NCBI GenBank assembly: GCA_003218305.1 | Contig: QHMY01000097.1 | Span: forward strand, 1-39,183 | DNA length: 39,183 nt | Source of the DNA: Verrucomicrobiota bacterium | GTDB taxonomy: Bacteria > Verrucomicrobiota > Verrucomicrobiia > Chthoniobacterales > UBA10450 | Direction: 5' to 3' | In this document: one piece after another, positions 10,458 through 38,368 of the stretch | Position numbering within the stretch: the stretch's first letter is position 1 | Layout of the letters: the number at the start of each line of letters is the position of its first letter | Made by a program: the position numbers and the translations under genes | The notes under the pieces: model-generated | The model's input: the letters and a program-made list of their open reading frames with translations, nothing else | The model's database searches: none | What the model was told of the DNA's origin: nothing

Positions 10458-10613
10458 CTCCTCGTTGACCTCCTCGTCTCCTCGTTCCCAAGTTGCACTT
10501 GGGAACGCCACCTCCCCACGAAGTTACACTTCGTCTCGGGGCTGCCCCGCGGGAATGAAGCTCAGCTTCAAAGCCAGAGTGCGCGCCCAAGTCCAACTTG
10601 GGCACGAGGAGGA
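10458..10613. repeat. Hairpin array: five three-base-loop hairpins within inverted outer arms
   Basis: Five hairpins follow each other. They are 10483-10507 (11-bp stem, loop TGC), 10518-10534 (7-bp stem, loop TAC), 10537-10549 (CGGGG-CTG-CCCCG), 10556-10570 (TGAAGC-TCA-GCTTCA) and 10585-10603 (GCCCAAGT-CCA-ACTTGGGC). The outer flanks TCCTCGTTCCCAAGTT (10479-10494) and AACTTGGGCACGAGGA (10595-10610) are reverse complements at 15 of 16 positions. The array fills the gap between two minus-strand genes and contains no credible gene. Confidence 0.8.
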
Positions 10614-11949: not shown

Positions 11950-12153
11950 GCTAGAGAGCGAAAGTCAGGTCGTCGAGGACGTCAGCTACCAAATCCGTAA
12001 TAACGGAAAGAAATACGTTTACACCAGTCCCCGATCCTGATTGAATCGCGAGTGCGCTAAGTCCGTCAGGCGTCTCCAGCCCAGCCACCTCACCCTCTTC
12101 CCGCAGGGTTAGCCCGAACGAACGGTTCGTTTGGACAATGAAAGGTGCTTGTT
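11950..12153. other. Divergent intergenic region with small inverted repeat
   Basis: These 204 bp separate the divergent SH3-like and delta-60 genes and must hold both promoters. The only structure seen is AACGAAC-G-GTTCGTT at 12117-12131, just upstream of the delta-60 gene's ribosome binding site, where it could be an operator or a leader hairpin. No convincing sigma-70 promoter was identified. Confidence 0.4.
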
Positions 12154-15100
12154 ATGACAAAGTCACGCTGTCGGTCCGGGATTTCCTTTACCGGTCTTAA
12201 AACTGCGCTTTTCCTGTTTGCCGTGACGGTGCTGCTGGCCGGCGGGGCGGTGACAGGACACGGTCAATCCGCCCTCGATGGTTTCGACCCGAACGTGAAT
12301 GGGACGGTTTACGCCGTTGTCGTCCAATCGGACGGGAAGATTGTTATTGGCGGTGATTTTACATCACTCTCGCCCAACGGCGGCGGGTTAGTTACTCGCA
12401 AATACATTGCGCGGCTGAACCCGGACGGCACGGTCGACGACGCCTTCGATCCGAACGCGACCTCTATCGTCCGTTCACTTGCGTTGCAGGCGGACGGCAA
12501 GATCCTGGTGGGCGGCATTTTTGGCACCATCGGCGGACAATCGCGCAACCACATCGCCCGGCTCGATGCCACCACCGGCTTGGCTGATTCGTTCGACCCG
12601 AACGCGAACAATACTGTCTCTTCCATCGTGGTACAGACGGACGGCAAGATTTTGGCGGGCGGCTTTTTCACCAACATCGGCGGACAGACGCGAAACCGCA
12701 TTGCCCGGCTCGATGCCACCACCGGTCTCGCAGATTCGTTCAATCCGAACGCGGACGGTCTCGTTCTCTCAATCGTGCAGGCGGACGGCAAGATTTTGGC
12801 GGGCGGACAGTTTTCGAGCATCGGTGGGCAGCCGCGCAATAACATCGCCCGGCTCGATGCCACCACCGGCTTGGCAGATTCATTAAACCCCAACGCGAAC
12901 AGTTTTGTCACTTCAATCGCAGTGCAAGCGGACGGCAAACTTTTGGTTGGCGGCGATTTCAACGGAGCGAACAGCATCGGCGGACAGACGCGGAATCGCC
13001 TTGCCCGGCTCGAGGCGACGACGGGCCTGGCCGATTCGTTCGACCCGAACGCGAACAATAGTGTCGCTTCAATCGCGGTGCAGGCGAACGGCAGGATCTT
13101 GGTCGGCGGCTTGTTCGGCAGTATTGGCGGACAGCCACGCAATTTCATCGCCCGGCTCGATGCCACCACCGGAGCAGCTGATTCGTTCGACCCGAACGCG
13201 AACAGTACGGTCAATGCAATCACGGTGCAGACGGACGGCAAGGTCGTGGCGGGCGGTTTTTTTACCAGCACCGGCGGACAGGCGCGTAACCGTATCGTCC
13301 GACTGGAAATCGATGGCCGGCTCGACCGGACGCTCAACAATCCGAGTGTGGTGGGCACCTTTGTTTTCGCCACCGCCTTGCAGGAGGACGGCAAGATTCT
13401 CCTCGGCGGCGACTTTACCACCGTTTTGGGCGTGGCCAGAAACTACATTGCGCGGTTGAATACGGACGGCACGCTCGACACCGGCTTCGACCCGAACGCG
13501 AGTGATATAGTCACTGCCATCGCGGTTCAGGCCAACGGCAAGATTCTAGTGGGCGGCGCTCTCAATAGTATTGGGGGACAACCGCGAAATCACCTCGCCC
13601 GGCTCGATCCTGCGACCGGCCTGGCGGATTCATTCAACCCAAACATAAACGATTTTGTCACCGCAATCTTGGTCCAGACCGACGGCAAGATCTTAGTGGG
13701 CGGTGCTTTTCTGGGCATCGGTGGACAGCCGCACAGCTTCATGGCGCGGCTCGATGCCACGACCGGCTTGCCTGATTCATTCAACCCGAACCCGAGCAAC
13801 CTGGTTAATTCAATTGCGGTGCAGGCGGACGGCAAGATTTTGGCCGGCGGCGCTTTTGTTAGTATCGGTGGACAGCCGCGCAATCACCTCGCCCGGCTGG
13901 ACGCTACGACCGGACTTGCGGATTCGCTTGATCCGGCCGCAGATATTGCAGTTGATGCAATCGCGGTGCAGACCGACGGAAAGATTCTGGCGGGTGGTCG
14001 TTTCACCACCATTGGCGGACAAACGCGCAACCGTATCGCGCGGCTCGATCCCGCCACCGGGTTGGCTGATTCGTTCGACCCGAACGCGAGCGGGTTTGTC
14101 GCTTCAATTGCCGTCCAATCGGATGGAAAGATCCTGGTGGGCGGCAATTTCGGTACCATCGGTGGCCAGCCGCGCCTTGGCCTCGCGCGGCTCGATCCCA
14201 CGACCGGATTGGCAGATTCGTTCAACGTGAATTCAGACGGTACTGTCTCTGCCATCGCAGTGCAGACAGATGGCAAGATTCTGGTGGGGGGTTATTTCAC
14301 AAACATCGGCGGACAGTCCCGCGGTCTTTTCGCTCGTTTGACCAATGACACCGCCGCGCTGCGAAATCTGGCCGTGACCCAACCCACCATTTTCTGGACC
14401 CGTGGCGGCGCCAGCCCGCGACTCGCGCGCGTCACATTTGAGTCTTCAACCGACAACGTGAACTACACTCCCCTCGGTAACGGCACGGCCGCGGGCAGCA
14501 ACTGGACGCTGACCGGTTTGAGCTTGCCGACCGAACAGAATATCTACATCCGCGCCCGGGGTCACTATCGCGGCGGCGACGGCAACGGTTCCGAGAGCAT
14601 CACGGAATCCGTGCGGAATGCTTTTGTGTTCCCGCAGGCGGCGCAGCCCCTCAACCTCTCGACTCGTTTGCGAGTGCTGACGGGTGCTAATGTCGGCATC
14701 GGCGGGTTTATCATTACCGGAACCGAACCAAAACATGTGCTCCTCCGGGCGATTGGACCTTCGTTGACACCACTTGGCGTCCCCAATGCGCTCGTCGACC
14801 CGGTGTTGGAGCTGCACGGTCCAGGCGCATTTGTCACGATCACAAACAATAACTGGAGAGACACCCAGGAGGCGCAGATTCAGGCCTCGGGCATCCCGCC
14901 GACCGATAATCTTGAGTCAGCCATTGATGCCACCCTGCCTCCCGGAGCGTACACCGCGATCCTGAGTGGCAATGGTGGCACCTCAGGTGCCGCGTTGATC
15001 GAAGCCTACGACCTTAATCGGGCCGCGGCCTCGAAACTCGGCAACATTAGCACGCGCGCTTTTATCAGCACCGGTGCCGACATCGTCATCGCCGGCCTGA

Positions 15101-15420
15101 TCCTGGGCAACGGCGGTGCCCCGGACAGAATCATAGTTCGCGGTATCGGTCCGAGCCTGACAGCGCTGGGAGTGCCCGGTGCGCTGGCCAACCCAACGCT
15201 GGAACTGCGCAACAGCGCTGGAACGATCGTTTCGTCGAATAACGACTGGCAGGATAACCCGGCGCAAGCGGCGGAAATCACCGCGGCGGGTCTGGCGCCG
15301 TCCAATAGTCTTGAGTCCGCCCTGGTGGCGACGTTGCCGCCGGGTGCTTACACCGCCCTGCTCGCGGGTCTGACCAACGGCACAGGCGTTGGGCTGGTCG
15401 AAGTCTACGACGTCAATTAA
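12154..15420 (+). CDS. Secreted delta-60 repeat protein with C-terminal tandem RAIGPSL domains
   Basis: A 1088-residue exported protein. A signal peptide covers about residues 1-40 (ends GHGQS). Fourteen copies of a 49-residue delta-60 repeat follow, each with the core (S)FDPNA..V..IAVQ.DGKILVGG.F..IGGQ.RN.IARLD.TTGLAD; repeat 4 lacks one residue in the SIVQ segment, repeat 5 has an insertion, and repeats 7-8 are the most divergent. These are expected to form a beta-propeller-like surface structure. A linker domain of about 95 residues (IFWTRGGASPRLARVTFESS) leads into two copies of a 120-residue domain with LR-AIGPSLT-LGVP, LELR/LELHG, NNNWRD and LPPGAYTA. The ATG at 12154 is preferred over a GTG at 12145 because AAGG lies eight bases before it. 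Probably cell-surface or extracellular; no enzymatic motif is visible. Confidence 0.9.
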   Translation: MTKSRCRSGISFTGLKTALFLFAVTVLLAGGAVTGHGQSALDGFDPNVNGTVYAVVVQSDGKIVIGGDFTSLSPNGGGLVTRKYIARLNPDGTVDDAFDPNATSIVRSLALQADGKILVGGIFGTIGGQSRNHIARLDATTGLADSFDPNANNTVSSIVVQTDGKILAGGFFTNIGGQTRNRIARLDATTGLADSFNPNADGLVLSIVQADGKILAGGQFSSIGGQPRNNIARLDATTGLADSLNPNANSFVTSIAVQADGKLLVGGDFNGANSIGGQTRNRLARLEATTGLADSFDPNANNSVASIAVQANGRILVGGLFGSIGGQPRNFIARLDATTGAADSFDPNANSTVNAITVQTDGKVVAGGFFTSTGGQARNRIVRLEIDGRLDRTLNNPSVVGTFVFATALQEDGKILLGGDFTTVLGVARNYIARLNTDGTLDTGFDPNASDIVTAIAVQANGKILVGGALNSIGGQPRNHLARLDPATGLADSFNPNINDFVTAILVQTDGKILVGGAFLGIGGQPHSFMARLDATTGLPDSFNPNPSNLVNSIAVQADGKILAGGAFVSIGGQPRNHLARLDATTGLADSLDPAADIAVDAIAVQTDGKILAGGRFTTIGGQTRNRIARLDPATGLADSFDPNASGFVASIAVQSDGKILVGGNFGTIGGQPRLGLARLDPTTGLADSFNVNSDGTVSAIAVQTDGKILVGGYFTNIGGQSRGLFARLTNDTAALRNLAVTQPTIFWTRGGASPRLARVTFESSTDNVNYTPLGNGTAAGSNWTLTGLSLPTEQNIYIRARGHYRGGDGNGSESITESVRNAFVFPQAAQPLNLSTRLRVLTGANVGIGGFIITGTEPKHVLLRAIGPSLTPLGVPNALVDPVLELHGPGAFVTITNNNWRDTQEAQIQASGIPPTDNLESAIDATLPPGAYTAILSGNGGTSGAALIEAYDLNRAAASKLGNISTRAFISTGADIVIAGLILGNGGAPDRIIVRGIGPSLTALGVPGALANPTLELRNSAGTIVSSNNDWQDNPAQAAEITAAGLAPSNSLESALVATLPPGAYTALLAGLTNGTGVGLVEVYDVN

Positions 15421-15559: not shown

Positions 15560-15583
15560 AGCGGACGCCGAATCAAAATCAAC

Positions 15584-15609
15584 AGGCGCTTGGCACAAGC
15601 GCCTCTACA
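15584..15609. repeat. REP-like hairpin, GGCGCTTG family
   Basis: AGGCGCTTG-GCA-CAAGCGCCT forms a nine-base stem with a three-base loop and is followed by CTACA, the mirror of the TGTAG cap. Same family as 33537, 33575 and 36353. Confidence 0.75.
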
Positions 15610-33502: not shown

Positions 33503-33537
33503 CGGCGGCGATCGGAAGGTCGCCGCCGTTTCTTTTT
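33503..33537 (+). terminator. Rho-independent terminator
   Basis: Nine-base stem CGGCGGCGA (33503-33511) and TCGCCGCCG (33520-33528) with an eight-base loop, then TTTCTTTTT. It ends the Spy-like transcript 27 bases after its stop, and abuts a REPIN-like element. Confidence 0.88.
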
Positions 33538-33600
33538 GTAGGGGCGCTTGTGCCAAGCGCCCAAACCGTGGCTCAGGCGCTTGGCACAAGCGCCTCTACA
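33537..33600. repeat. REPIN-like pair of inverted hairpins (GGCGCTTG family)
   Basis: Left unit TGTAG plus GGGGCGCTTG-TGC-CAAGCGCCC (33537-33562) and right unit AGGCGCTTG-GCA-CAAGCGCCT plus CTACA (33575-33600) are reverse complements over 25 bases with one mismatch, separated by a short spacer. Each forms a stem with a three-base loop. The right unit overlaps the 3' end of the APC permease gene and provides its TAG stop. Confidence 0.85.
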
Positions 33601-34987: not shown

Positions 34988-35054
34988 GCCAAGCCCCCAG
35001 GGAGCGGCGGTTTACTCGCGAACCCTTTCGGAGTTTGTAACCGCTGTTTCATCG

Positions 35055-35278
35055 TTTAGCGCCAACGGCGCTCCATTAGTGCAAGCCTGGGGCAACGCCC
35101 CAAGGTGTTGGGTTCCATAATTGTCGAGCGCTGAAAGCGCGGTTCAACCCGCCGGTAACTGTGTAATTCCGCGCGCATCGTTCGTACGAACCGCGCTTTC
35201 AGCGCCAGGTATTTGAGGTGGACGAGTTCCCCGGGGCGTTGCCCAGGCTGCCGATGACGCAGCGCCGTTGGCGCTAAA
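35055..35278. repeat. 224-bp mirror-symmetric hairpin element, copy 1
   Basis: Perfect 18-bp terminal inverted repeats, TTTAGCGCCAACGGCGCT (35055-35072) and its complement (35261-35278). Three hairpins lie on the left: 35058-35072 (loop AAC), 35088-35102 (TGGGGC-AAC-GCCCCA) and 35128-35140 (GCGCT-GAA-AGCGC). They are mirrored on the right at 35193-35205, 35234-35244 and 35261-35275. All loops are three bases. About 80% identical by eye to copy 2 at 36112-36332. No coding sequence is inside. Confidence 0.85.
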
Positions 35279-35303
35279 CTTCGCACGCCCAGCGGCGCAC
35301 CAA

Positions 35304-35339
35304 CTAGGGAATATTACTGATTTCGACGAGCCCTATTCG
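35304..35339 (-). pseudogene. Relic of a RAIGPSL-domain gene 3' end
   Basis: The minus-strand frame ends IGLVEISNIP and a TAG, nearly identical to the last residues of the sugar-dehydrogenase fusion (IGLVEIYNIP, stop at 36476) in residues and bases. Nothing upstream in this frame resembles the domain. Only the tail of a former gene seems to remain, 26 bp from the mirror element. Confidence 0.6.
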
Positions 35340-35552
35340 CGGACGAATTTTTTGCAAAAAATTTTCGATATTCATAAAACCTTCCGGTACTGAACTCTCC
35401 GGCCAATGGCAAACGCCGCGCGTTTTTCCCAGGGGTCCAATCTCACTTTGCGTTTCGAATAGCTTTTCACAGAGGGAGACGCGCGCCCGTCTCGAGTGAG
35501 GGGGAAAAATGTGACCGTCTGGCCTGCTGTAACCAAACGGAAGGAAAGCATT

Positions 35553-35879
35553 ATGAAGAAAACAATACTCAGCATCGCGCTGGCTGTTGTCGCTCCGTTT
35601 GCTTGGGGGCAAACCTCGAGCACCACGACAACGACCACGACAACGAGCGATGGCACCATTACGGAATACACGCCAGGTAGCGTGATTACTCTGAAAGAAA
35701 CGAGTGGCCCGCGCCGCTATCGTTTCGGCAAGACTGTCACCTATGTGACCAAGAGCGGTAAGACCCTCGACGAAGAGACGGTCAAGACCCGGATCAAAGT
35801 TGGCATACCGGTACACGTCCATTACACGGGTGAAGGGGACAACATGATGGTCGATCGTGTGATCCTCGACGAGGATTGA
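35553..35879 (+). CDS. Small exported protein, Thr-rich N-terminus, function unknown
   Basis: A 108-residue protein with a signal peptide (MKKTILSIALAVVAPFAWGQ, cleavage after about residue 19). A run of threonines and serines follows (SSTTTTTTTTSDG), then a compact beta-rich domain of about 75 residues (TITEYTPGSVITLKETSGPRRYRFGKTVTYVTKSGKTLD). No family is assigned. The ATG at 35553 has AAGGAAAG about six bases upstream and starts the signal peptide exactly; the frame extends 19 codons further without sense. Probably periplasmic or surface-exposed. It is a single gene between two copies of the mirror element. Confidence 0.75.
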   Translation: MKKTILSIALAVVAPFAWGQTSSTTTTTTTTSDGTITEYTPGSVITLKETSGPRRYRFGKTVTYVTKSGKTLDEETVKTRIKVGIPVHVHYTGEGDNMMVDRVILDED

Positions 35880-35959
35880 TCGGCGGCTGTTTGTCCTTGC
35901 TCAGCAACGCGTCGCCCTTCCGGGTGCCTGGAGGCAAGCGAAGGGCGGCGCTTATGAGT

Positions 35960-35980
35960 GGACGCCGCAGCGCGGCGTCC
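35960..35980. repeat. GGACGCCGC hairpin, three-base loop
   Basis: GGACGCCGC-AGC-GCGGCGTCC, nine-base perfect stem, followed by CTAC, which mirrors the GTAG cap of the other REP-like units. Confidence 0.65.
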
Positions 35981-35986
35981 CTACCT

Positions 35987-36070
35987 CTCGTTCCCCGTTC
36001 CCAAACTCTGGTTTGCGGGTCAACAGGGTTGCTGGAACAAGGACATTCCCAAACAGAGTTCGGGAACGAG
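35987..36070. repeat. Paired inverted repeat with CTCGTTCCC arms
   Basis: Outer arms CTCGTTCCC (35987-35995) and GGGAACGAG (36062-36070) are perfect complements. Inside, CCCAAACTCTGGTTTG and CCCAAACAGAGTTCGGG give weaker hairpins. The arms match the outer arms of the hairpin array at 10479-10610 in sequence type (CCTCGTTCCCAA). Confidence 0.6.
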
Positions 36071-36111
36071 GAGAATCTCGGCGATAGGCTCGAGCACAAG
36101 AACGAGCGTTG

Positions 36112-36332
36112 TTTAGCGCCAACGGCGCTCCATCAGTACTAGCCTGGGGCAGCGCCCCAGGTTATGGGATAAATAATAGTCGAGCGCTGAAAGCGCGGTT
36201 CAACACGCCGGTAAAAGTGTAATCCGCGCATATCCGTTCGGATGAATCGCGCTTTCAGCGCTAAGTATGTGAGGTGGACGAGTTCATGGGGCATTGCCCC
36301 AGGCTGTCAATGATGTAGCGCCGTTGGCGCTA
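36112..36332. repeat. 221-bp mirror-symmetric hairpin element, copy 2
   Basis: Terminal repeats TTTAGCGCCAACGGCGCT (36112-36129) and AGCGCCGTTGGCGCTA (36317-36332), with the same three hairpins per arm as copy 1. In this copy the right inner hairpin is intact (TGGGGC-ATT-GCCCCA near 36287-36301), which explains the eroded one in copy 1. The centre is the least conserved part. Confidence 0.85.
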
Positions 36333-36352
36333 GTCACACCTGAGTCCGGGGT

Positions 36353-36378
36353 TGTAGAGGCGCTTGTGCCAAGCGCCT
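36353..36378. repeat. REP-like hairpin, GGCGCTTG family
   Basis: TGTAG followed by AGGCGCTTG-TGC-CAAGCGCCT: same family as the REPIN pair at 33537-33600 and the single unit at 15584. Confidence 0.75.
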
Positions 36379-36447: not shown

Positions 36448-36475
36448 TCGGTCGTAGAATCTTGGCAGCTTGGAA

Positions 36476-38368
36476 CTAGGGAATATTATAGATTTCGACT
36501 AGGCCGATTCCGGTCCCGCCATTTGTTCCGCCCACGATGGCTGTGTAGGCGCCGGGGAAGAGGCTAACGGAGAGGGCTGATTCCAGAGGATTGGTTGGCG
36601 CGAGTCCGCTGGCGAAAATCTGGCCGGCTTGGGCGGGGTCATCCTGCCAGTTGTTGTTCGCGCCAATGAGCGCGGCGTTGCTGTCCCGCACCTCAAGCGT
36701 CGGATCAGCGAGGGCATTGCCGATGCCGGACTGAGCGAGCGAAGGCCCGATCGCGCGCACGATTACTTTGGCGGCGCCGTTATTGCCGCCGAGAATGAAA
36801 CCTCCGATCAACCTGTTGTTATCAGTCTGGACGAAGCTGCGCGTGCTGATATTGGCCAGCTTCGAACCGGCCCCCGAATCGAGATCGTAAATTTCCACCA
36901 AACCAATGCCGGTCGCCGCGTTGTTTCCCCGGACCACGGAGGTGTAAGCGCCGGGAGGCAGGGTCGCGACGATGGCGGACTCGAGATTGTTTTGCGGCGC
37001 GAGCCCGGTGCTCATGATTTCGGTTTCCTGCGTATCCCGCCAGTTGTCGTTTGAGGTGATGATCGATCCGGTGGAGCCGTGGAGCTCGAGCACGGGATCG
37101 GCGAGCGGATTCGGGACGTTGAATTGTTGGAGCGAAGGACCGAGCGCCCGGATGATGATTCGCTTTTGGGCGCTTCCACCAATGATGAAGCCGCCAATCA
37201 TGGCGCTCTCGCCGCCAGCCACTTGCGAGCGCGAAGAAATGTTCAGCGCCTGCGATGCCGTTGCGGTGACCTTCAACACCTGGCCGCCATTTCCTCTGAT
37301 GAGGTAGTAGAGGCTGCCATCCGGTCCGATTTGCAGGTCGACCGGGGTGGAAAGGCCGGTGGCGAAAGCACTCGCCGTGTTATTCGAAGGGTCCATCACC
37401 CGGATCCAGCCGCTGCACAGGTCGGCGAAGAAATATTTGCCCGTATAACTGGCCGGGAATTGGTTGACCGCAGGACTGTAAAACGCGCCGCCGACGATGG
37501 CGCATCCGGTGGTGTTGCCTGTGCCGTGGCCGTATTGAAACAACGGATCGCGCAGGTTTGCGTTGGGAGGCGAACAGGCGCCCTCGCAAATGCTCCATCC
37601 GTAGTTTGACCCCGCGATGCCGTCGTTGATTTCCTCGAAGGTACTCTCTCCGACGTCATTGATAAACATGCGTCCGGTGCCGGGTTGGAAGGCGAACGTG
37701 TAGGGATTCCTCAATCCGAGCGCCCAGATCGCCCGGTTCGCGCCGGTGGCTGTGCCGAAGAAAGGGTTATCCGCGGGGATGGAACCATCGGCATTGATCC
37801 GAAGCAGCTTTCCGAGCCGGTTACTCAATGTTTGGGCATTGGCAGCGTTCGCGTTTTCGCCCACGCCAACATAGAGCCTGCCGTCCGGGCCAAAGTGGAT
37901 CGCGCCACCGTTGTGATTGGTGGCGCCGCTCAGGTTATCGAGATCGAGAATGACGGTTGGGCCGCCAGCGGCCACGTCGCCATTGGCGGTAAAGCGGCTG
38001 ATGCGATTGTGGGCAGGGCCTCCGGGGACCGTGTGATAGACGTAAACAAACTGGTTGCTGGCAAAGTTCGGATCGAAGGTCACTCCCAGAAGGCCCCGTT
38101 CGCCGGACGAATCGACTGTGAGCGAAACGAACGGATCCGGCAGGAGGCTGCCGTTCTTAATGATGCGGAGCTGTCCTCCCTGGAGGCAAATGAAGAGGCG
38201 GCCGTCCGGGGCAAAGGCCATCGCGGTGGGCGCGCCGGACAATGTGCCCCCAAACTGCGTTTCGGTGAAACCGGCGGGAAGAACTGCCGCCGAGACCGAA
38301 AATCCGCTGAGGAAAAGAGCAAGGGCCGTGGAGCCGATGAGTCGCTGAAAGTGTCGCGAAAATTTCAT
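36476..38368 (-). CDS. PQQ-type glucose/sorbosone dehydrogenase fused to tandem RAIGPSL domains
   Basis: A 630-residue exported protein. A signal peptide spans residues 1-27 (ends VSA). Residues about 30-390 form a six-bladed propeller of the soluble aldose dehydrogenase family: RGLLGVTFDPNF near 91-102, NHNGGAIHFGPDGRLYVGVGEN with the expected catalytic His152, ALGLRNPYTFAFQPGTGRMFINDVGE, and EEINDGIAGSNYGWSICEG. Such enzymes oxidise aldose sugars in the periplasm with pyrroloquinoline quinone and calcium. From about 395 two copies of the 120-residue surface domain follow (ALGPSL, AIGPSL, LPPGAYTSVV, SLFPGAYTAI), the same as in the delta-60 protein at 12154. The ATG at 38368 begins the signal peptide; the frame extends 34 codons further. 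No PQQ synthesis genes are in the window. The fusion suggests a surface-displayed enzyme. Confidence 0.88.
   Translation of the reverse strand: MKFSRHFQRLIGSTALALFLSGFSVSAAVLPAGFTETQFGGTLSGAPTAMAFAPDGRLFICLQGGQLRIIKNGSLLPDPFVSLTVDSSGERGLLGVTFDPNFASNQFVYVYHTVPGGPAHNRISRFTANGDVAAGGPTVILDLDNLSGATNHNGGAIHFGPDGRLYVGVGENANAANAQTLSNRLGKLLRINADGSIPADNPFFGTATGANRAIWALGLRNPYTFAFQPGTGRMFINDVGESTFEEINDGIAGSNYGWSICEGACSPPNANLRDPLFQYGHGTGNTTGCAIVGGAFYSPAVNQFPASYTGKYFFADLCSGWIRVMDPSNNTASAFATGLSTPVDLQIGPDGSLYYLIRGNGGQVLKVTATASQALNISSRSQVAGGESAMIGGFIIGGSAQKRIIIRALGPSLQQFNVPNPLADPVLELHGSTGSIITSNDNWRDTQETEIMSTGLAPQNNLESAIVATLPPGAYTSVVRGNNAATGIGLVEIYDLDSGAGSKLANISTRSFVQTDNNRLIGGFILGGNNGAAKVIVRAIGPSLAQSGIGNALADPTLEVRDSNAALIGANNNWQDDPAQAGQIFASGLAPTNPLESALSVSLFPGAYTAIVGGTNGGTGIGLVEIYNIP

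Follow-up and report, generated by a model that had tools for sequence, protein, structure and literature searches.

A six-hairpin mirror element in a verrucomicrobial genome and its probable mobilization by a Y1 transposase

The paired elements and their surroundings

The window analysed here, a stretch of 39,183 nt taken as a whole, lies on one contig (C46) of a draft verrucomicrobial genome of 3.6 Mb that is 88.7% complete (the source genome, G000). Between a permease gene and a GSDH gene it holds two copies of a palindromic element, each composed of two 92-nt arms that bear three hairpins apiece, with the order of the hairpins reversed on the second arm (Table 1). The copies are 1056-1057 nt apart, start to start, and are 82-86% identical over ungapped blocks. 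A preliminary description of this DNA, made from its letters, had placed two copies about 1 kb apart, and both are present. It had also given each arm three hairpins in mirrored order, an arrangement borne out by the hairpin listing and by folding as single-stranded DNA, in which copy 2 has a z score of -13.0 and copy 1 of -9.25 against shuffled sequences, 0 of 200 shuffles being as good for either copy. The consensus hairpins of an arm are GCGCC-AAC-GGCGC (H1), CCTGGGGC-AAC-GCCCCAGG (H2) and GCGCT-GAA-AGCGC (H3).

Two details of the earlier description need adjustment. The terminal inverted repeats exist and are perfect, but instead of the 16-18 bp first given they read as 19 bp in copy 1 (35054-35072 / 35261-35279) and 16 bp in copy 2 (36114-36129 / 36317-36332). 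In copy 1 the eroded hairpin had been taken to be the inner one on the right; it is the middle hairpin of that arm (H2', about 35230-35248), and both copies retain an intact innermost pair, H3/H3'. As proposed, the element has no gene: no ORF of at least 80 aa lies wholly within either copy, and two such ORFs cross an edge. A scan of the window against Rfam at the gathering threshold returned 0 matches.

Table 1. Positions of the elements, their parts and neighbouring features in the window (R1, covariance model of one arm)
Feature	Position	Strand	Basis or remark
Copy 1, six-hairpin mirror element	35054..35279		226 bp with GTTTA ends; sequence, folding, hairpin listing
Copy 2, six-hairpin mirror element	36111..36333		223 bp; sequence, folding, hairpin listing
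Copy 1 left arm (H1-H2-H3)	35056..35148	+	R1, 82.0 bits
Copy 1 right arm, H2' eroded	35185..35277	-	R1, 67.6 bits; hairpin listing
Copy 2 left arm (H1-H2-H3)	36113..36204	+	R1, 89.0 bits
Copy 2 right arm (H3'-H2'-H1')	36241..36333	-	R1, 82.0 bits
Copy 1 hairpins	H1 35058-35072, H2 35088-35102, H3 35128-35140, H3' 35193-35205, H1' 35261-35275
Copy 2 left hairpins	H1 36115-36129, H2 36143-36161, H3 36184-36196
Copy 2 right hairpins	H3' 36249-36261, H2' 36287-36301, H1' 36316-36332
37-bp duplicate, 86% identical, of the GSDH gene's 3' end (36474-36510)	35302..35338		just right of copy 1
108-aa ORF between copies 1 and 2	35553..35879	+	no Pfam match at E 0.001

The duplicated GSDH gene end beside copy 1 suggests, as far as sequence can tell, that a local segmental duplication or rearrangement made the pair. 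At the corresponding locus of the congener G002, the permease and GSDH alignments are 75 nt apart where the window holds both copies. By eye, other palindromic inserts lie between the permease and GSDH genes of two further congeners (L175 of G007, ~1560-1730; L176 of G006, ~1815-1915), and this spot seems to collect palindromic elements. DNA resembling the 108-aa ORF occurs at other loci in the congeners G004, G006 and G005 (among the matches listed); since R1 matches no arm in these loci (L180-L182), the idea that the ORF is composite cargo of the two elements is unsupported.

Several other repeats were observed in the window. GTAG-type REP hairpins, consisting of GTAG plus AGGCGCTT...AAGCGCCT and including one inverted pair, occur at 36353-36378, 33537-33600 and 15581-15609; in the loci of 15 six-hairpin copies, such REPs lie within 150 nt of 4 copies, compared with 3 sites in the remaining 34.5 kb of these loci. 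Stretches of palindromic sequence around CTCGTTCCCAA..TTGGGAACGAG, akin to ones that flank other copies, are found at 10477-10505 and 36046-36074, and 147-bp tandem repeats (12276-14328) lie inside an ORF (12145-15420) that matches DUF5122 beta-propeller repeats.

A dispersed family and the transposase genes between its arms

The genome-wide covariance-model search that had been proposed as a check was run with a model of one arm (R1; 92 positions, 18 base pairs), and it reveals a family beyond the two copies. A DNA search with the element gives 59 matches in the source genome, where R1, with 150 of 2292 candidates scored, finds at least 49 arms at no fewer than 28 places. These comprise at least 21 inward-facing pairs, one with its arms 189 nt apart and the others closer, and at least 7 solo arms, some near contig ends; among the same scored candidates no outward-facing or same-direction pair of arms occurs within 120 nt. 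A motif-based extraction from the loci L001-L083 likewise yielded 115 arms with 39 inward pairs, 2 outward pairs and 0 same-direction pairs within 120 nt. Across 58 genomes, the source genome included, arms are present in at least 24 when 74 candidates are scored per genome under filters stricter than those of the source-genome search. Among the matches listed, the congeners G006, G005, G004 and G007 have 55, 42, 6 and 1 arms, and G001-G003 have none. A DNA search of the plasmid collection with the element gave no match.

Arms of this kind also surround a gene. In a genome of the same family as the source (G029, locus L043), H1-H2-H3 is followed by a Y1_Tnp ORF (1394-1846) and then by H3'-H2'-H1'. 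The encoded IS200-like protein of 150 aa matches PF01797 (E 1.8e-27) and NF033573 (72.3 bits against a cut-off of 55). In all, four loci of relatives (L043, L064, L067 and L074) have arms that enclose a Y1 transposase gene or its remnant; the gene of L064 is frameshifted, and in L077 an arm-gene unit is cut by the contig end. When three such proteins were searched against the genome_contigs collection, at least 386 relatives were confirmed and 80 were kept, which by record title come mainly from Verrucomicrobia, Planctomycetes and Acidobacteria, with a few others. In one of these loci (L107, from a record titled Candidatus Nitrotoga sp. M5), an arm-transposase-arm unit encodes a protein 59% identical to that of L043, and its presence amid mostly verrucomicrobial relatives may reflect horizontal transfer or contamination.

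In the 80 transposase loci R1 has 249 matches, a few of them one arm read on both strands, and these are spread over 76 of the loci, the remaining 4 being without any match. A correctly facing arm stands upstream of the gene in 52 of the 80 loci, downstream in 49 and on both sides in 38, with median gaps of 11 nt upstream and 3 nt downstream; the opposite orientation is that of the sole neighbouring arm in 13 loci upstream and 7 downstream. Up to 180 nt from the gene there are 5.0 matches per kb, as against 0.43 in the rest of the loci. The inverted-repeat score around the gene is above the 99% point of the control in 21 of 78 loci (2 of the 80 were left out, having less than 100 nt on one side), a cross-locus control that, in our reading, is itself raised by the arms common to the loci. 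At the level of genomes, among the matches listed, arms occur in 9 of the 9 genomes that have a homolog of at least 60% identity and in 15 of the 49 others, the source genome being one of the latter (one-sided Fisher p = 1.2e-4, with the 60% limit chosen after the results were known and G028, which has a 48-residue piece at 63%, placed among the others).

The proteins are consistent in their signatures. The motif Y[IVL]..Q..HH is found in 74 of the 80 relatives and [DN]H[VIL]H in 77, two frameshifted proteins and one masked protein being among the misses, and the two H of the HUH motif, the catalytic Y and the Q are invariant in transposase alignments of 20 and 30 sequences. Sequence relatives in the PDB include the TnpA of ISHp608 (2a6m, E 3.6e-5). 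In viral contigs 104 stretches fit the pattern for transposase relatives and none was confirmed, and the phage collection contributed 9 records that resemble the transposase, all below 60% identity.

The source genome itself presents a different picture, as no transposase with matching arms was found in its 88.7%-complete assembly. The two Y1 genes that come closest share 43-47% identity and are accompanied by different hairpins. Four Y1 genes (L031-L034) were considered as the driver of the element and rejected, a motif scan having given single hairpin-like matches and no arm; R1 matches the flanks of L031 weakly (E 1e-4, 0.005 and 0.06) and has no match to those of L032-L034 at E 1 or below. 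These genes have features of their own. L031 (C249, 1144-2137) has larger palindromic structures on either side with a different hairpin set, and L032 (C278, 1414-2002) has two mirrored hairpins per side (CCCAGCG...CGCTGGG and GTCCC..GGGAC), to which several relatives are similar. L033 (C202) and L034 (C98) are Y1 transposases of TnpA-REP type that carry Y...NP motifs and, from their sequences, are possible partners of the GTAG REPs in the window. Because no cognate gene was found in the assembly, the six-hairpin copies of the source genome may be relics; either they are stranded or they are served by a gene missing from the assembly.

Mirrored hairpins around Y1 genes also occur more widely. 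In 21 loci (two Bacteroidota plasmids, 17 more distant homologs and two closer ones) the inverted-repeat score has a median of 62 against 19 in the cross-locus control, and 12 of the 21 exceed the 95% point of that control, which is 57; several have other hairpin sets mirrored round the gene. By eye, a Persicobacter plasmid (L215) has three mirrored hairpins, with a score of 46, below the 95% point, and no R1 match, while a Bernardetia plasmid (L216) has no mirrored three-hairpin layout and a score of 22. Among the matches listed by further plasmid searches there was no additional close Bacteroidota record.

Mobility of the element and maintenance of its hairpins

The joined flanks of four copies from the source genome were searched across the genus, and those of two copies, on C280 and C66, were aligned. 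Both stretches that flank the C280 copy are present without the element in 7 of 7 congeners, and the C66 copy is absent from both of the congeners aligned. A GC-rich flank repeat was considered as a possible unoccupied target, but its 2 pattern matches both adjoin elements and so provide no empty site. The search for target-site duplications that the preliminary description had recommended gave no duplication of 3-9 bp above shuffles in 38 inward pairs (of 39, one near a locus end having been dropped), with 1 of 38 at 3 bp and 0 of 38 at 4-9 bp at the best offset; this result agrees better with a Y1 transposase than with a DDE one. There is a weak excess of 2-bp matches at the insertion ends (13 of 38, where shuffles give 9.3; p = 0.036 for the best of 10 offsets, uncorrected for the lengths tried). 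The conserved end of the element is approximately TGTTTA before H1; since the insertion sites lie in diverged intergenic DNA, these comparisons place the ends and the cut site only approximately.

That the structure is in part maintained, as the preliminary description had suggested from paired differences between the copies, is upheld by compensatory changes in the arms. In an alignment of the 150 best of the 249 R1 arms from the transposase loci, 99.2% of the stem cells are paired and 15 of the 18 base pairs have changed on both sides, in a total of 242 cells. Covariation is scored at 0.311 as compared with 0.108 for shuffled and at most 0.076 for slid controls, a value that leans towards the structure of the model, as the alignment was fitted to it. 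This alignment replaces the covariation of an earlier one (40 of 115 arms), as the latter had been chosen for low mismatch. In the 26 loci with both an upstream and a downstream arm inside the 150-arm alignment, the two arms of one locus have a mean stem mismatch of 0.081, against 0.158 across loci, a difference equalled in 0 of 2000 permutations, whereas the spacers between H2 and H3 are hardly alike (mismatch 0.637 within a locus and 0.671 across loci).

Some unpaired positions are conserved as well: CA(T) follows both H1 and H3 (the A at 98% in both), and AG precedes H2 in 100% of the arms. At a guess, these might act as guide or cleavage motifs. In the chosen sense of the arms, G.T is commoner than C.A in the stems (53 as against 12 cells, or 26 as against 11 when the H3 closing pair is left out), a hint that one particular strand is the folded one, with the reservation that this excess is biased because the covariance model itself favours G-U.

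Interpretation and comparison with known systems

The preliminary description had offered three identities for the element, and among these a non-autonomous mobile element is strongly favoured by the transposase-bearing relatives, the dispersal and the empty sites; a structured RNA or a nucleoid-associated site is not supported as the primary identity. The element is very probably the gene-less, MITE-like form of a small transposon, and by analogy with known single-strand transposition systems a Y1 transposase that works on single-stranded hairpins would move it in trans. The full form would encode the 150-aa Y1 (HUH) transposase between its two 92-nt three-hairpin arms. IS200/IS605 enzymes act on single-stranded DNA through hairpins, according to the available part of the survey by Quentin et al. 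(2018, PMC6006769). If IS608/ISDra2 and TnpA-REP are a guide, the hairpins of the arms would extrude in stretches of single-stranded DNA, such as those of the lagging strand, and be bound by TnpA, which would cut beside them through its tyrosine and re-join the segment elsewhere in a single-strand reaction; copies without a gene would be served by the same protein in trans. Like a MITE, the element is short (223-226 bp), gene-less and bounded by perfect terminal inverted repeats of 16-19 bp, and it has transposase-bearing relatives with such ends; the target-site duplication typical of DDE-type MITEs was not seen. A point against mobilization by the Y1 transposase is that, among the matches listed, 15 of the 49 genomes without a close homolog have arms, the source genome alone having at least 49.

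A structured RNA, regulatory or terminator-like, in which the hairpins are kept for the folding of a transcript, would account for the strong folding of both copies and the covariation of the stems, and the preponderance of G.T over C.A fits one folded strand. It is nevertheless very unlikely, given that Rfam has no match at gathering score, that the arms are the ends of transposase units, that the spacers drift and copies are not kept in place between species, and that the G.T excess, besides its bias, is also expected of a single DNA strand. Alternatively, the palindrome may have been domesticated as a nucleoid, gyrase or mRNA-stability site, its spread being a by-product and REP-like host roles dominating today. 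REPs are reported to have such roles in the portion of the survey available (PMC6006769), and the source genome keeps its many arms without a detected cognate transposase. This seems very unlikely when 7 of 7 congeners have no C280 copy and 4 of 7 have one arm or none among the matches listed, as occupancy that differs between close species is not expected of a needed host site. Even less can be said for a classical MITE moved by a DDE transposase that recognises double-stranded inverted repeats and duplicates its target: the size, the inverted repeats at the termini and the absence of a gene agree with it, but the gene between such arms is a Y1 transposase, the 38 pairs lack a duplication of 3-9 bp, and all three hairpins of each arm are maintained, beyond the termini. 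Local duplication without any wider family has practically no probability and is refuted as an account of the element by its at least 28 places in the source genome and its arms in at least 24 of 58 genomes, dispersal and compensatory changes together excluding the case, raised in the preliminary description, of two copies that arose by one local duplication without compensatory change; for this particular pair, the duplicated GSDH end, 86% identical much as the copies themselves are, indicates that segmental duplication may be the explanation.

The probable transposon with its gene-less form can be set beside several known systems. It resembles IS200/IS605 elements such as IS608 and ISDra2 in having hairpin ends and a Y1_Tnp domain with HUH and a catalytic tyrosine. 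Elements of that group excise and insert as single strands beside a fixed tetranucleotide. IS608 is not known to make a target duplication, a further likeness, and its ends are asymmetric single hairpins on one strand, in contrast to the two inverted three-hairpin arms found here. The mechanism of IS608 would thus not be copied unchanged, as inverted arms are unlike asymmetric ends on the same strand. The PATEs of Haloquadratum walsbyi are, in the accessible part of their description, gene-less relatives of IS605-type elements with palindromes near their ends, no target duplication and no terminal inverted repeats (PMC3119063, 2011); the first three of these properties are shared by the element, which differs from them in being a full inverted repeat with terminal repeats of 16-19 bp.

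The likeness to REP, BIME and REPIN sequences and their RAYT (TnpA-REP) proteins lies in dispersed hairpins, inverted pairs and the link to a Y1 transposase. Unlike REPs and BIMEs, the arms have no GT[AG]G at the foot of a hairpin, their consensus being TGTTTA before H1 and AG before H2, and the repeated unit, about 92 nt long, carries three hairpins where a REP has a single short one. Like the TIRtrons, of which Di Nocera is said to be an author, the elements have a Y1 gene flanked by long inverted repeats and form a dispersed repeat family. In the part of the 2013 paper at hand, TIRtrons (TIRYT) are Y1 genes between long inverted repeats, which are also found as dispersed, often dimeric families (PMC3733652); 26 examples are assigned in the consulted text of the later survey to subclasses 2.1, 2.2 and 2.5, most of their inverted repeats containing GGGGWSAS (PMC6006769). 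As far as these sources describe them, TIRYT of the 2.1 type have proteins of about 238 aa with a C-terminal HTH and the GGGGWSAS motif, unlike the 150-aa protein with a 1.2 signature seen here, and TIRYT differ also from the three-hairpin arms, whose H2 consensus is GGGGCAAC (by eye). Since the arms fail the tests of GT[AG]G, GGGGWSAS and protein length, they are classed neither as REPs nor as 2.1-type TIRYTs, although by analogy they may work like both.

The nearest published group besides the TIRtrons is TnpA_Y1 subclass 1.2, for which the available text of the survey gives a length of about 148 aa, the motifs DH[IV]H, WQ and Y---Q--HH, and an origin mostly in Cyanobacteria and Bacteroidetes; Table 1 of the survey lists no REP for the subclass, whose members are said as a rule to lack the terminal structures typical of IS200 (Quentin et al. 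2018, PMC6006769). In the open-access literature on subclass 1.2 IS200 transposases this survey alone was found, and titles and abstract starts pointed to no further work on elements of this kind in these phyla, an earlier description elsewhere being possible. Judged by signature motifs and set against that partial account, the present proteins fit the subclass in length (about 148-150 aa) and in the tyrosine motif found in 74 of 80. They depart from it in that their genes are flanked by mirrored three-hairpin arms (with arm matches in 76 of 80 loci and correctly facing arms on both sides in 38) and that their records are, by title, mainly of Verrucomicrobia, Planctomycetes and Acidobacteria. 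These arms call for either a correction to the description of the subclass or a split within it.

There is an even chance that mirrored three-hairpin arms are the distinct transposon end of this whole Y1 branch (subclass 1.2) in Verrucomicrobia, Planctomycetes and Acidobacteria, perhaps also in Bacteroidota, and that its TnpA reads three hairpins at each end and spreads gene-less six-hairpin copies. If so, the "orphan" subclass 1.2 would have repeats after all and would drive a REP-like repeat system that has gone unrecognised. The arms tie a dispersed verrucomicrobial hairpin repeat to a transposase lineage described as lacking cognate repeats. The 92-nt three-hairpin arm is a clear and testable substrate, and the system may account for other unannotated palindromes in genomes of these phyla. 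It provides a second case, beside REP/RAYT, in which to study the spread of gene-less palindromes by single-strand transposases and the persistence of three hairpins at each end.
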